Positions 5,272 to 18,625 of a stretch of 45,969 bases of DNA are shown here, piece after piece (within the stretch, counting starts at the first letter, position 1; each line of letters begins with the position of its first letter). Position numbers and translations under genes: made by a program. The stretch covers positions 1 through 45,969 of IMG/VR virus record IMGVR_UViG_3300044691_000697. One strand, 5' to 3'. The notes beneath the pieces were generated by a model. The model had not been told where the DNA came from. It was given only the letters and a program-made list of their open reading frames with translations, and ran no database searches. Source of the DNA: a virus.

Positions 5272-5301
5272 GGAATTCTCCTTTGGTTTTGATCTCATCA
5301 G

Positions 5302-5346
5302 TGCGCGAATCACGCGCAGACAAAATCAGACAGCCGTTGCCGTCTG
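5302..5346 (-). promoter_or_regulatory. Two adjacent hairpins in the leader of the leftward operon
   Basis: TGCGCG (5302-5307) pairs with CGCGCA (5313-5318), and CAGAC (5327-5331) pairs with GTCTG (5342-5346) with further GC pairs inside. In the leftward transcript the second stem comes first and is followed by ATTTTG, like a weak terminator, so the pair could act as an attenuator or a 5' stabiliser ahead of the 5271 start. Confidence 0.35.
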
Positions 5347-5696: not shown

Positions 5697-6137
5697 ATGA
5701 AAATCAGCTGCACCAGGATCTTGGAATTCGACGCCGCCCATAGGGTCGTAAATCATGAGTCGAAATGCGCCACTCTGCACGGCCATCGATACAAGGTCGA
5801 AACCACAGCGACCTCGGCGGATCTTGATTCCATCGGCCGCGTGATCGACTTCTCGGTTTTGAAACAAAAACTTGGCGGCTGGCTTGATCGCGAGTGGGAT
5901 CACAACTCGATCATTTTCAAAAAAGATCAGCTGACCATTCAAGCCCTGACTTCGATTCCTCGAAAAAAAGAACCGTTTATTTCTGAGTTCAATCCGACGG
6001 CCGAGAACATGGCTCACTTTTTATTGAATACGATTTGTCCGATTCTTTTTCTCAAAGACGGAATCATCGTCACGCATATCCGAGTATGGGAAACGCCAAA
6101 CTGTTTTGCCGATGCATTCCTTGAGGTGAAGCCGTGA
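5697..6137 (+). CDS. queD: 6-carboxy-5,6,7,8-tetrahydropterin synthase
   Basis: A 146-residue T-fold enzyme that converts 7,8-dihydroneopterin triphosphate to 6-carboxytetrahydropterin, the second step of 7-deazaguanine synthesis. All key residues are present: zinc histidines His15 (FDAAHR), His28 and His30 (LHGHRY), catalytic Cys24, His69 (WDHNS), the PTAENMA motif near 100 and Glu132 in WETPN. The ATG at 5697 is chosen over an in-frame start at 5664 because AGGGGG precedes it and the protein then begins like other QueD proteins. It is the first gene of the operon; its TGA overlaps the GTG of queE. Confidence 0.93.
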   Translation: MKISCTRILEFDAAHRVVNHESKCATLHGHRYKVETTATSADLDSIGRVIDFSVLKQKLGGWLDREWDHNSIIFKKDQLTIQALTSIPRKKEPFISEFNPTAENMAHFLLNTICPILFLKDGIIVTHIRVWETPNCFADAFLEVKP

Positions 6138-6721
6138 CGTTCAACATCAATGATCTATTCTGGACTTTTCAAGGAGAAGGACTCCATGCTGGACGTCGTG
6201 CCCTTTTTGTTCGCATGCCATTTTGCAATCTCAGTTGTTCGTGGTGCGATACAAGCTTCAATACTTTCAAAAAAGTCACGGACCAAGAGCTTGCAGCATT
6301 CGCGACTTCAGAGAAAGCCAAGTTTGCAGTGATCACGGGCGGTGAGCCGACTATGAATAAGCACACTCCAGGAGTCATCGCACTGTTGAAACAATTCGGG
6401 TTTGAAATCGCGATTGAGACGAATGGCAACTTTGCGATTCCTGACGGCATCGATTTTGTCACTGTGTCCCCAAAGCGGGATGCGAACTATAACGTAAACA
6501 TTGATGCTTTCACAAAGGCTTCTGAATTTAAGTACGTCGTCGACGAAGGGTTTGATTTTTCTCTTCTCAGTCGACACGATGTTACTGACGGACGCAGGTA
6601 CTCGCTGTCGCCAGAGTTTGGGAACTTTCAAAAAAGCCTCGCAAGGATTTATGAATTTATTAAGGAGAATCCAAGATGGAGAATAAGCCTTCAAACGCAC
6701 AAGTGGATGCAGATTCCGTAG
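6134..6721 (+). CDS. queE: 7-carboxy-7-deazaguanine synthase (radical SAM)
   Basis: A 195-residue radical-SAM enzyme that contracts the ring of 6-carboxytetrahydropterin to 7-carboxy-7-deazaguanine (CDG). The N-terminus has the substrate/SAM pattern FWTFQGEGLHAGR, the cluster motif CNLSCSWC (Cys31, Cys35, Cys38; CX3CX2C) and VITGGEPTM, the usual GGEP loop. It ends LQTHKWMQIP, matching the typical QueE tail, so the protein is complete. It is on the short side for the family. The start is GTG in a GTGA overlap with queD; its last 46 bases overlap the start of folE. Confidence 0.92.
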   Translation: MTFNINDLFWTFQGEGLHAGRRALFVRMPFCNLSCSWCDTSFNTFKKVTDQELAAFATSEKAKFAVITGGEPTMNKHTPGVIALLKQFGFEIAIETNGNFAIPDGIDFVTVSPKRDANYNVNIDAFTKASEFKYVVDEGFDFSLLSRHDVTDGRRYSLSPEFGNFQKSLARIYEFIKENPRWRISLQTHKWMQIP

Positions 6722-7302
6722 TCGAATTTCGATGCAAGCAAACCGGAAAAACATTGAGTTTGACGACGACAGAAATGGTCGCAGGAATCATTCAAGCAAT
6801 CGGCGATAATCCAAAGCGCGAGGGCGTGCTCGATACGCCCAGGCGGGTGGTAAAGAGCTGGAAAGAAATCTACGCCGGCTATCGGCAAGACCCGGTCAAG
6901 ATCCTCGGCACCACTTTTGAAAAAGGCAAGTACGACCAAATGGTCATTTGCAAGGACATAGAGCTTTACTCGACTTGCGAACATCATATGATCCCATTTT
7001 TCGGCAAAGCCCACATCGGCTACATTCCTGGCGAACGCGTAGTTGGACTTTCAAAACTTGCACGAGTGGTTGATGTTTTTGCACGACGTCTCCAGATCCA
7101 GGAGAAAATGACTCAGCAGATCGCCGATGTATTGAATGACGTTCTCAAGCCAAAGGGTGTGATGGTCGTCGTCGAAGCAAAACACATGTGCATGTGCGCG
7201 CGCGGAGTAGGTAAACAAAATTCGTCGATGATCACTTCTGCAATTCACGGACTCTTTAAAGAGAAGAAAGTTCGTACTGAATTTTTGGATCTGATTCGAT
7301 GA
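6676..7302 (+). CDS. folE: GTP cyclohydrolase I
   Basis: A 208-residue FolE that makes 7,8-dihydroneopterin triphosphate from GTP, the entry step for the pathway. The zinc and active-site motifs are intact: CEHHMIPFFGKAHIGY (Cys101, His103, His104), SKLARVVD, and HMCMCARG (Cys172, Cys174). Residues 1-30 form an extra N-terminal piece typical of the family. The ATG at 6676 has AAGGAG eight bases before it even though this lies inside queE, so the 46-base overlap is real. A phage-borne copy raises precursor flux beyond host folate and queuosine needs. Its stop overlaps the next start in ATGA. Confidence 0.94.
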   Translation: MENKPSNAQVDADSVVEFRCKQTGKTLSLTTTEMVAGIIQAIGDNPKREGVLDTPRRVVKSWKEIYAGYRQDPVKILGTTFEKGKYDQMVICKDIELYSTCEHHMIPFFGKAHIGYIPGERVVGLSKLARVVDVFARRLQIQEKMTQQIADVLNDVLKPKGVMVVVEAKHMCMCARGVGKQNSSMITSAIHGLFKEKKVRTEFLDLIR

Positions 7303-7637
7303 AAAAAAGCGTGTGCGTTCAATTTCAATTCGAAGGTTCTCATTGTTGGCCTGAAGCACCTGAGTCGGTTGGATTTCTTCGAACGCCACACCGACACATG
7401 TTTCATGTCAAAGCGAAAGTTCGCGTATCGCACGGAGACCGCGAAATTGAATTCATTCTTTTAAAACGAGAACTTGAAAACTATGTAGCCGTATGGGGTT
7501 TTGATCTTGGTCGAGCCAGCTGTGAAGAAATGGCTGAAGACTTGATCAACTACATCACGGGGGAATACGGATTCAGAGACATTGAAGTCAGTGTTTTTGA
7601 AGACGGCGAAAATGGCGCGGTCGTGAGTTTGCCATGA
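7299..7637 (+). CDS. Small QueD/PTPS-like protein lacking the catalytic cysteine
   Basis: A 112-residue protein that looks like a reduced copy of the QueD fold. It keeps the zinc-type histidines (FEGSHCW, His15; HRHMFHV, His31 and His33), a DREIEFILLKREL stretch where QueD has DFxxLK, an SCEEMAEDL helix where QueD has PTAENMA, and a Glu at VFEDGENGA where QueD has WETP. It lacks the Cys that precedes HGH in QueD (here RTPHRH). It is therefore unlikely to be a second QueD and may act on a later intermediate, for example CDG. A phage CDG decarboxylase has been reported in the literature as I recall, but I cannot say that it is this family. ATGA overlaps at both ends tie it to folE and dpdA. Confidence 0.7.
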   Translation: MKKSVCVQFQFEGSHCWPEAPESVGFLRTPHRHMFHVKAKVRVSHGDREIEFILLKRELENYVAVWGFDLGRASCEEMAEDLINYITGEYGFRDIEVSVFEDGENGAVVSLP

Positions 7638-8533
7638 AGATTTTTCTCGCAGGATGCGAAGACTTTCAATTCCTTTATCTGACCGAAGTTGTGAATCACC
7701 CGTACAATCTTTTCAGTTACTACCATTGGCTCAATACAGCACCCAAAGACAAAGTTCGAGTTGATGAAATCTGGGAACGATTCCCGCAAGAGATCATTTG
7801 CGACTCTGGACTTTTCACATTGATGTTCGGAGCTGGCAAGGGCGGCAGCTATGACTTGCCCTACATGAAAACCTACACAGAGAAGTACATATCGACTGCG
7901 CGAAATTTCAAATGCAAAAACGTGACGATTGTTGAAAGTGACGTACACAAGCTTCTCGGAATGGATGCCGTTTTCGAACTTCGAAAGTATTTTGAAGACA
8001 GCGGCATGAAGGTCCTCTATGTCTGGCACCGCGAAGAAGAAATCGATGGTCTTTACCGGATGGCTGAGAAGTACGACTACATTGCTATTTCGGTTCCAGA
8101 GCTCAGAATCCTTTGCAAGGGGAAGGTCCGATATCAGGATGCCGTAAAGGATCTTGAATTGAAGATTTTTAAAAACACTTCCAAGCTTCCGCGGATTCAT
8201 CTTCTCGGAAACACCGTCATGCAAACGATGCAAACCAACATCAGCTATTCTTGTGATTCGACCAGCTGGCTCTCCGGCGGCCGCTATGGTCGGTACATCC
8301 ACTACATCGACGGTCGATTGACTGCGAAGAAGCTTTCGTCGAACGAATTTCTCAAAACCAAAGCGGTATTCGAAAGTCAGTATCCGGACCACTGGCAAAA
8401 ACTTTCTGACGAGTACGGGCATCGAAGCGAAAAATATTTGCCGTACATCATATCGATGTATCTGTCGGCGCGTTCGTTCAATCTCTATCAAATGTATTTA
8501 GACAGAAAATATAAATGCCTAGCAAGGAAGTGA
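7634..8533 (+). CDS. dpdA: DpdA-type DNA 7-deazaguanine transglycosylase
   Basis: A 299-residue TIM-barrel protein distantly related to tRNA-guanine transglycosylases. DpdA proteins exchange guanine in DNA for a 7-deazaguanine base. The first conserved aspartate lies in ICDSGLFTLMFG (Asp57), matching the DSGxF loop of TGT enzymes, and a second in YSCDSTSWLSGGRYGR (Asp208), the usual DpdA signature region with DSTSW. Alternating beta-alpha sequence fills the rest (VTIVESD, LYVWHRE, IAISVPEL). There is no obvious zinc site. Overlapping starts and stops with the precursor genes make its role firm; the precise base and target sequence are not readable from the protein. Confidence 0.88.
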   Translation: MKIFLAGCEDFQFLYLTEVVNHPYNLFSYYHWLNTAPKDKVRVDEIWERFPQEIICDSGLFTLMFGAGKGGSYDLPYMKTYTEKYISTARNFKCKNVTIVESDVHKLLGMDAVFELRKYFEDSGMKVLYVWHREEEIDGLYRMAEKYDYIAISVPELRILCKGKVRYQDAVKDLELKIFKNTSKLPRIHLLGNTVMQTMQTNISYSCDSTSWLSGGRYGRYIHYIDGRLTAKKLSSNEFLKTKAVFESQYPDHWQKLSDEYGHRSEKYLPYIISMYLSARSFNLYQMYLDRKYKCLARK

Positions 8534-8537
8534 TGCA

Positions 8538-9269
8538 ATGGAATTAAAGATCAACGTTCAAGAAGTTCCAATCGATTCGTTGAAACCGAATCCATGGAAT
8601 CCAAACAAACAAACCGATTTCATATTTGAAAAAGAAAAAATGTCGATCAAGACTCATGGCTTCATCGATCCGATTCTCGTTCGCGAAAAGGATGGCGATC
8701 TTGAAATCATCGACGGCGAGCATCGATTCAGAGCAGCCAGATCACTTGGGTTCGAAAAGATTTCGGTAAACAATCTTGGTGAAGTTTCAGATCCAGTCGC
8801 CAAGCAACTCACTATCATTATGAATGAGACGCGCGGGCGCGCCGATGCCGATATGATGTCGAAGCTCTTAAAAGATATCGAGCAGAGTGTCGGTCTTGAT
8901 CACATGATTGAAGTTTTGCCGTACACGCCGACAGAGATCGAAGCATTCACCGCGGAGGCGTCAGTCGATTGGAATGAGATCAGTCCGTCGCTTTCCCAGT
9001 CTGCACCTCTCGAAACAGCTGGAAGTGATCCAACTTCAAACGGACAAAGTTCTGCTGGTGGTCCATCGATCCAACAAGCGCCATTGAAAAAGATTTTACA
9101 TTTTGAAGTCAGTGAAGAGATTTTTGAGTCATTCAATTATGCCTTGGACAAAATCAAGGAAAAGTTGCATCCAGATTCTGATCCGTCAGAATGTGCTCCA
9201 GATATGGCTTTGCAGGCGATGTCGCAGATCATCGTAAGTGTTGATCTTGACGTGCATATAAAGGATTAG
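8538..9269 (+). CDS. ParB-like nuclease-domain protein of the modification operon
   Basis: A 243-residue protein with a ParB/Sulfiredoxin-type N-terminal domain: VPIDSLKPNPWNPN (10-23), GFIDPILVRE (41-50) and DGEHRFRAARSLG (59-71), where ParB proteins have the GERR-type nucleotide-binding box. After about residue 140 comes a low-complexity linker and a C-terminal helical domain. ParB-like proteins often lie beside phage dpdA genes; they may guide the transglycosylase to sites or use CTP as a DNA clamp, but this is not established. AGGAAG precedes the ATG; it ends the operon. Confidence 0.8.
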   Translation: MELKINVQEVPIDSLKPNPWNPNKQTDFIFEKEKMSIKTHGFIDPILVREKDGDLEIIDGEHRFRAARSLGFEKISVNNLGEVSDPVAKQLTIIMNETRGRADADMMSKLLKDIEQSVGLDHMIEVLPYTPTEIEAFTAEASVDWNEISPSLSQSAPLETAGSDPTSNGQSSAGGPSIQQAPLKKILHFEVSEEIFESFNYALDKIKEKLHPDSDPSECAPDMALQAMSQIIVSVDLDVHIKD

Positions 9270-17515: not shown

Positions 17516-18625
17516 ATGTTACTCGCGGTGCAAATATTCGTCTTAGCATCACTTGCCATGACCACATACGCATGGATGCTGACAAAATCGATCAACAATC
17601 CAAAGAAGCCGACTAAACCAAAACGCAAGAGACCGATATCGATTCTCAAGCCAATGAAGGGATTCGACTACGGTTTCGTTCAAAACATAGAATCTTTTTT
17701 CAGTCTGGATTTTTACCCAGGTGACGAATTGATTTTTTGTTTTGAAAATAAATCGGACGGGATGATCACTTTCATTCGAAATATGATGAATGTTTACCCA
17801 CATGTGCCGGCCAAAATCTCAACTGGTGGATGGCCATTCGGAATCAATCCAAAGATCCAAAATATATTTCACGCTTACCAGAATGTAAAAAATGACATGG
17901 TCCTGATCAGTGATTCAAACGTAGAAGCGCCGGACAACTATTTGAATTTGGTCGACTATGAACATACGGAAGGCGATGGCGTCTTGACTGCGGCAGTAGT
18001 TGGAACACGTTCGATCACGATGGCTGCTCAAATAGAGAACATGCTCCTTCAAAGATTTTACAACAAGTGGCTTGTGGTTTTGAATTCGATCAACGTACCG
18101 ATCGTCATGGGTAAGTCGATTTTCTTCAGCAAAAAAAACTTGGAGAAGCAAGACGGACTCTATCACGCCGTCAGATACTTGGCTGAGGATTACACGATTG
18201 GGCAAATGCACAAGCGCGAGGGACTCAAAACAAAAGTCCTGAGCATTCCGGTAAAGCAAGCAATCGGCCGCCGAACATTCAGAGAGTTGTTTGATCGATA
18301 CGCCAGGTGGGGGCGGATGCGACGAGCTCACGAACCGCTTGTTTTTTACTTTGAACCACTGATGTCTTTTTCGATCGTTTCGACGATGGCGACCATCGCG
18401 TTCCCTTTTTGGTTTGCATTGATTTTCAATACAGTCTGGTGCTGGATCGAAATCGCAACTCTCAAGAGACTTGGATCTGAAACGGATCCCCTGGCTTACA
18501 TGATGAGCGAATGGTTGACGCTTCCAATTTGGTTTTACACATTGATGAGCGACAAAGTCGAATGGCGCGGCAGAATTTATAAAATGCAACCGGGTGGCAC
18601 ATGCAAAGAAGTGAAGACGGCATAA
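17516..18625 (+). CDS. Membrane glycosyltransferase, ceramide glucosyltransferase/HpnI type
   Basis: A 369-residue family-21-type glycosyltransferase. An N-terminal membrane span (1-22) is followed by a basic linker, the entry motif SILKPMKGFD, ISDSNVEAPD (Asp133, the second aspartate motif), LAEDYTIG (Asp225) and the RYARW signature (261-265; the (Q/R)XXRW motif), then hydrophobic C-terminal segments (about 280-320 and 335-355). This order is that of ceramide glucosyltransferases and of HpnI, which adds GlcNAc to hopanoids. It would work at the cytoplasmic face of the inner membrane on a lipid acceptor. AGGGGG precedes the ATG. A phage copy suggests alteration of host envelope lipids, for instance receptor masking; the acceptor is not known. 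Confidence 0.8.
   Translation: MLLAVQIFVLASLAMTTYAWMLTKSINNPKKPTKPKRKRPISILKPMKGFDYGFVQNIESFFSLDFYPGDELIFCFENKSDGMITFIRNMMNVYPHVPAKISTGGWPFGINPKIQNIFHAYQNVKNDMVLISDSNVEAPDNYLNLVDYEHTEGDGVLTAAVVGTRSITMAAQIENMLLQRFYNKWLVVLNSINVPIVMGKSIFFSKKNLEKQDGLYHAVRYLAEDYTIGQMHKREGLKTKVLSIPVKQAIGRRTFRELFDRYARWGRMRRAHEPLVFYFEPLMSFSIVSTMATIAFPFWFALIFNTVWCWIEIATLKRLGSETDPLAYMMSEWLTLPIWFYTLMSDKVEWRGRIYKMQPGGTCKEVKTA

Follow-up and report, generated by a model that had tools for sequence, protein, structure and literature searches.

A QueC-less phage operon for probable 7-deazaguanine modification of DNA

Guanine look-alikes of the 7-deazaguanine type that are swapped into phage DNA shield it from bacterial restriction enzymes. 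Cui et al. 2023 reportedly found 2′-deoxy-7-deazaguanosine (dDG) and dCDG, the corresponding form of 7-carboxy-7-deazaguanine (CDG), in phages and predicted a CDG decarboxylase, DpdL. That work (NAR 51:9214) is cited in PMC12783734 and PMC13329287. CDG is formed from GTP by FolE, QueD and QueE and is converted to preQ0 by QueC (PMC13329287, PMC6884629). A CDG-type base in a phage lacking QueC is not a new idea, as it was raised for Mycobacterium phage Bipper (Hutinet 2019, PMC6884629). Phages of the 9g (dG+), CAjan and Rosebush groups contain FolE, QueD and QueE together with a DpdA-type transglycosylase, and have QueC or Gat-QueC, making preQ0 or G+ (PMC6884629). Here, we describe a six-gene operon (5697–9269) in the IMG/VR virus record IMGVR_UViG_3300044691_000697 of an uncultivated phage, positions 1 to 45,969 (the window; 45,969 nucleotides), which resembles these phages in FolE, QueD, QueE and a DpdA-type transglycosylase but contains a small gene for a protein of predicted QueD fold instead of QueC.

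All six open reading frames that a preliminary description, made from the DNA letters, had placed in a single rightward run were found and assigned to families by profile searches, including the dpdA-type transglycosylase and the ParB-like gene (Table 1). Very probably, the six genes build a guanine look-alike and swap it into phage DNA. We consider it likely that the operon represents a phage 7-deazaguanine DNA modification pathway branching off before QueC, in which CDG is decarboxylated and 7-deazaguanine is inserted as dDG. FolE, QueD and QueE would make CDG, and the small QueD-fold zinc protein would act on CDG at the step of QueC, most likely by decarboxylating it to 7-deazaguanine. With the help of the adjacent ParB-like protein, the DpdA-type protein would exchange guanine in replicated phage DNA for 7-deazaguanine. 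The resulting dDG should make the DNA less open to restriction enzymes that recognise guanine N7.

Judged by the motifs of the three predicted enzymes, the CDG pathway is complete in the window, and FolE, QueD and QueE were thus all present, as in phage DpdA-dependent modification. The active-site set of QueD was complete (zinc histidines, the Cys of KCATLHGH, WDHN and VWE), and QueE showed the CxxxCxxC cluster motif in the alignment and matched a 7-carboxy-7-deazaguanine synthase structure; the QueE alignment was too diverse to serve as a search query. No QueC or Gat-QueC was detected in the window genome with PF06508 or TIGR00364, both of which were positive in control genomes, and no YhhQ-type (preQ0) transporter was found there. 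The only match to the QueF profile (PF14489) was the folE product, which has a related fold, and this candidate was rejected since it is FolE itself (Table 1). QueC, Gat-QueC and QueF, any of which would place an element in the preQ0/G+ subgroup, were accordingly not found, and no ArcS search was made. These searches agree with the preliminary description, which had reported all three to be missing from the circle and had held that a QueC detected by sensitive profile search would speak against its reading; none was detected in the window genome. Its claim of circularity also stood: the record carries a 127-bp direct repeat at its ends, which gives a closed circle of approximately 45.84 kb, so that gene absences from this genome carry meaning.

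A QueD fold is predicted for the small protein of 112 residues. An AlphaFold2 model (pLDDT 96.6) showed the E. coli QueD structures as top PDB matches (TM 0.79), and alignment of its profile to that of the QueD proteins from the small-gene loci (1.5e-7) paired its HRH with the HGH of QueD, its SCE with the start of the P-T-x-E helix of QueD and its E101 with the C-terminal Glu of QueD. Relatives of the small gene were found in 27 named phage records and 34 IMG/VR loci; the named carriers include Cellulophaga phage phiST, Acidovorax phage ACP17, Rhizobium phage RHph_I1_18, Pseudomonas phage PA5oct, Xanthomonas phage X1 and Vibrio and Faecalibacterium phages. Among 41 different sequences, H15, L27, H31, H33, F35, R48, E51 and S74-C75-E76 were invariant and E101 was nearly so. 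The small protein thus shares with the QueD/PTPS family (PF01242) the fold, the three zinc histidines (H15, H31 and H33) and the C-terminal Glu, and it may bind zinc. Unlike this family, it contains neither the catalytic Cys (C-x3-HxH) nor the Asp-His pair, an invariant Leu27 occupies the Cys position as judged by motif spacing, and its score against Pfam PTPS (16.9 bits) is below the cut-off of 22.4; its own family, phrog_17812, is listed with unknown function. Invariant residues particular to the small-protein family were R48, E51, SCE and an EDGENG motif.

Because the zinc histidines and the Glu are kept, the QueD Cys and Asp-His pair are absent and the family has invariants of its own, the small protein appears to act on the same kind of substrate in a different reaction. 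The pocket that reads a guanine-like edge was probably kept and the QueD reaction lost; a second copy of QueD was rejected as an explanation, since the catalytic residues are missing. We regard the protein as a probable replacement for QueC and likely a CDG decarboxylase. CDG is a pyrrole-3-carboxylate, a type of compound that should readily undergo protodecarboxylation, and a zinc site beside the guanine-reading Glu would be a sensible place for this reaction. The small gene may be a DpdL-like candidate, likened to the predicted DpdL by description. The preliminary description had called the gene QueD-like, which the fold and the zinc histidines bear out, but had overlooked its role as a probable QueC replacement. 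Of the features of a dDG-type pathway, CDG genes without QueC and a small PTPS-like gene common to phiST and ACP17 were found in the window. Like the window, phiST contains queD-queE-folE and the same small gene and lacks QueC; unlike the window, it has a transglycosylase of the phrog_20335 type and no adjacent ParB.

Across the phages compared, presence of the small gene and presence of QueC are mutually exclusive, with one divergent exception. The small-gene set comprised 47 records (the window, 34 IMG/VR records and 12 named phages), 37 of which contained QueE. No QueC match whatever was found in the 35 IMG/VR records, window included, or in 10 of the 12 named phages. The match in Xanthomonas phage X1 was below the family cut-off, and Vibrio phage D479 was the sole small-gene phage with a match over the cut-off, a partial one (32.8 bits) with SGIDS instead of SGGxDS; the D479 region (153872–154066, minus strand; L133) encodes a divergent QueC-like PP-loop protein. 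A DpdA-centred set, gathered by alignment-based search irrespective of the small gene (44 records of at least 11 kb), contained QueC in 36 and QueE in 35 records, and the small gene in a single record, itself without QueC. When only QueE-bearing records were compared, QueC was present in 32 of the 34 that have a related dpdA and no small gene, versus 1 of the 37 that carry the small gene (Fisher 1e-16, a figure that ignores, and is inflated by, kinship among the records). With many of the records being fragmentary, little weight attaches to any one absence; the evidence lies in the contrast between the two sets. The rows with the small gene call for three changes on the DpdA tree, two of them forced by supported branches. 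A single clade of these rows was weakly rejected (approximately unbiased test, p 0.039), and the independent pairs number two to three. Further independent ground for the exclusion is that the small gene also occurs with transglycosylases of the phrog_10773 and phrog_20335 types, which share DSGGF or H-LG-type motifs of tRNA-guanine transglycosylases (TGTs) with DpdA, weakly so for phrog_20335. Of the 42 small-gene loci, 38 contained one of the three dissimilar DpdA types (phrog_887, phrog_10773 or phrog_20335).

The window DpdA-type protein belongs to phrog_887 (queuine tRNA-ribosyltransferase). D57, H132, H189 and S206-x-D208-S209 were invariant in an alignment with nine relatives, and D57 (in DSG) and D208 (in CDS) are two conserved aspartates, as in TGTs. 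No close relatives were found with the window protein as a single query; the alignment-based search did find relatives. The nearest DpdA on the tree was that of Faecalibacterium phage Roos (sister at 100/98 support, 31% identity). Roos contains ParB, the small gene and DpdA together as a minimal module (L002, 4825–6876), as does the window, but its genome showed no QueE match and the module is likely fed by host CDG; such a module without QueE would fit a small-gene branch that is able to draw on CDG from the host. A ParB_N gene was located within 1.5 kb of the phrog_887-type dpdA in 79 of 97 loci, usually with a 4-base overlap (L048, L050–L130), and the ParB-like gene is therefore probably linked to this DpdA type as its partner and is not a partition gene that merely happens to lie next to it. 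ParB_N was the only domain found in its product by Pfam scan. In other phages, too, ParB_N genes have been noted next to enzymes that modify bases (PMC12783734). Bacterial Dpd islands likewise combine a TGT-type DpdA with a ParB-like protein, DpdB, an ATPase acting with DpdA (PMC12839542); the window ParB_N protein is likened to DpdB by description, and unlike these islands the window operon has no restriction genes of the Dpd kind.

Of the 42 small-gene loci, 31 (among L004, L006–L045 and L115) have a GT4-like glycosyltransferase gene (Pfam Glycos_transf_1) close by, versus 2 of 79 DpdA control loci. This gene accompanies DpdA proteins of the phrog_887 and phrog_10773 types, whereas loci of the phrog_20335 type (the phiST class), Roos and the window lack it; thus, the small gene works without the GT4-like enzyme. 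This linkage suggests glycosylated 7-deazaguanine DNA in the GT4-bearing relatives, and our literature search found no paper joining 7-deazaguanine DNA with a GT4-type glycosyltransferase. Tentatively, the small gene may define a QueC-independent branch in which a neighbouring GT4 decorates the base in most members, possibly by forming a C-glycoside at the unsubstituted C7 of 7-deazaguanine, with the window, phiST and Roos types being plain and unglycosylated. Should the linkage be functional, it would suggest a class of DNA bases that bear sugars; this linkage and the adjacency of ParB_N and dpdA look newer, as side findings. In one distant contig (L115:6438–7004), a gene for an S-adenosylmethionine-dependent methyltransferase lies between the glycosyltransferase and dpdA, possibly for further decoration of the base. 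The window itself encodes at 17516–18625 a GT21/GT2-like glycosyltransferase that has no relative in named phages; it was set aside as a DNA-glycosylating enzyme because of its GT21-like character and apparent membrane segments, and is probably envelope-related.

Several points weigh against the proposed decarboxylation and insertion as dDG. Decarboxylation is argued from the fold, the genomic position and the reported prediction of a CDG decarboxylase, and the exclusion of QueC rests on only two to three independent switches on the DpdA tree. The AlphaFold model of the DpdA-type protein was poor (pLDDT 51), so that it gives no fold evidence, and a Pfam scan of this protein was empty. Besides, the frequent GT4-like neighbour means that the product of the small-protein family may be a handle other than 7-deazaguanine. 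The small protein would then convert CDG to another 7-substituted deazaguanine that serves the GT4 in relatives and is here left undecorated or finished by another enzyme. We consider this quite improbable, since the glycosyltransferase is absent from the window, Roos and the phiST-type phages and the operon contains no recognisable second enzyme for modifying the base. The small protein might instead be a carrier or binding partner that delivers CDG itself to DpdA for insertion as dCDG. In favour of this are the lack of QueC in the window genome, the reported dCDG in phage DNA, and the retention of the QueD zinc site and anchoring Glu without QueD catalysis, which would fit mere binding; the invariant polar residues specific to the family (R48, E51, S74-C75-E76, D102 and N105) look catalytic, and insertion of CDG itself seems unlikely on the whole.

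The preliminary description had left two branches: that the base is CDG or something made from it, or that the phage relies on host QueC. The former is the better supported. Under the latter, preQ0 (or ADG) would be present in phage DNA and the small gene would be incidental; many hosts have QueC, and host-supplied 7-deazaguanines have been discussed (PMC6884629). This reliance on the host is disfavoured and, in our judgement, very improbable, because phages of this sort that lack QueC carry the small gene and those with QueC do not. Only two QueE-bearing DpdA contigs without QueC also lacked the small gene, both of them on contigs of 11–26 kb. FolE and QueD are also common to tRNA queuosine and folate metabolism, and boosting of these host pathways has been raised for phages without DpdA (PMC6884629). 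For the window, with a DpdA type and a ParB-like partner in the same run, a combination found again in a second contig (L037) and without ParB in L115, we regard such a role as hardly credible.

With decarboxylation of CDG and insertion as dDG as the preferred reading, the operon offers a minimal six-gene cassette for testing guanine replacement that bypasses the branch point at preQ0. A protein of 112 residues emerges from it as the likely stand-in for QueC, and the ParB-like protein as a conserved partner of one DpdA type. Type IV CBASS and Qat, two defence systems, reportedly also make use of CDG (PMC13329287), and it may be speculated that a phage enzyme consuming CDG could affect these too.

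Table 1. Genes of the operon with their assignments and supporting matches.
Gene	Position	Strand	Assignment and evidence
queD	5697..6137	+	6-carboxy-tetrahydropterin synthase; PF01242 2.2e-27, phrog_2389 3e-35; PDB QueD matches
queE	6134..6721	+	radical-SAM CDG synthase, CxxxCxxC; phrog_2076 8e-31; PDB 4njg 4.3e-25
folE	6676..7302	+	GTP cyclohydrolase I; PF01227 6e-75, 251 bits
small QueD-fold gene (112 aa)	7299..7637	+	probable QueC replacement, likely CDG decarboxylase; phrog_17812 2.8e-22
dpdA-type	7634..8533	+	predicted DNA-guanine transglycosylase; phrog_887 4e-22; DSG and CDS motifs; tree
ParB_N-domain gene	8538..9269	+	probable DpdA partner; PF02195 2.2e-14; adjoins dpdA in 79/97 loci

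The grouping of these genes is not due to chance, since the order queD-queE-folE-small gene, with dpdA further along, was found again in L115 (queD-queE-folE-small-glycosyltransferase-methyltransferase-dpdA) and all six genes again in L037 (small-glycosyltransferase-dpdA-parB-queD-queE-folE). The preliminary description had reported 4-base overlaps at most joins, and these were found at three of the five (queD/queE, folE/small gene and small gene/dpdA); the queE/folE overlap amounts to 46 bases if the called start is used, and dpdA and parB are separated by 4 bases. The queD ATG at 5697 is preceded by AGGGGG, which resembles a ribosome-binding site. The operon had no match among named phages at the nucleotide level, an Rfam search of the operon leader for a preQ1 or other riboswitch gave none, and promoter and terminator scans gave no more matches than shuffled sequences, or nearly so. 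A sub-threshold match to a type III hammerhead ribozyme at 5281–5326 on the minus strand (25.8 bits, E 0.003) was set aside as probably inactive, because its core reads CAAAAC where CGAAAC is expected. The window genome also encodes a tail sheath, baseplate, portal and terminase, as in contractile-tailed phages, and a dual-specificity-phosphatase-like protein at 983–1522.

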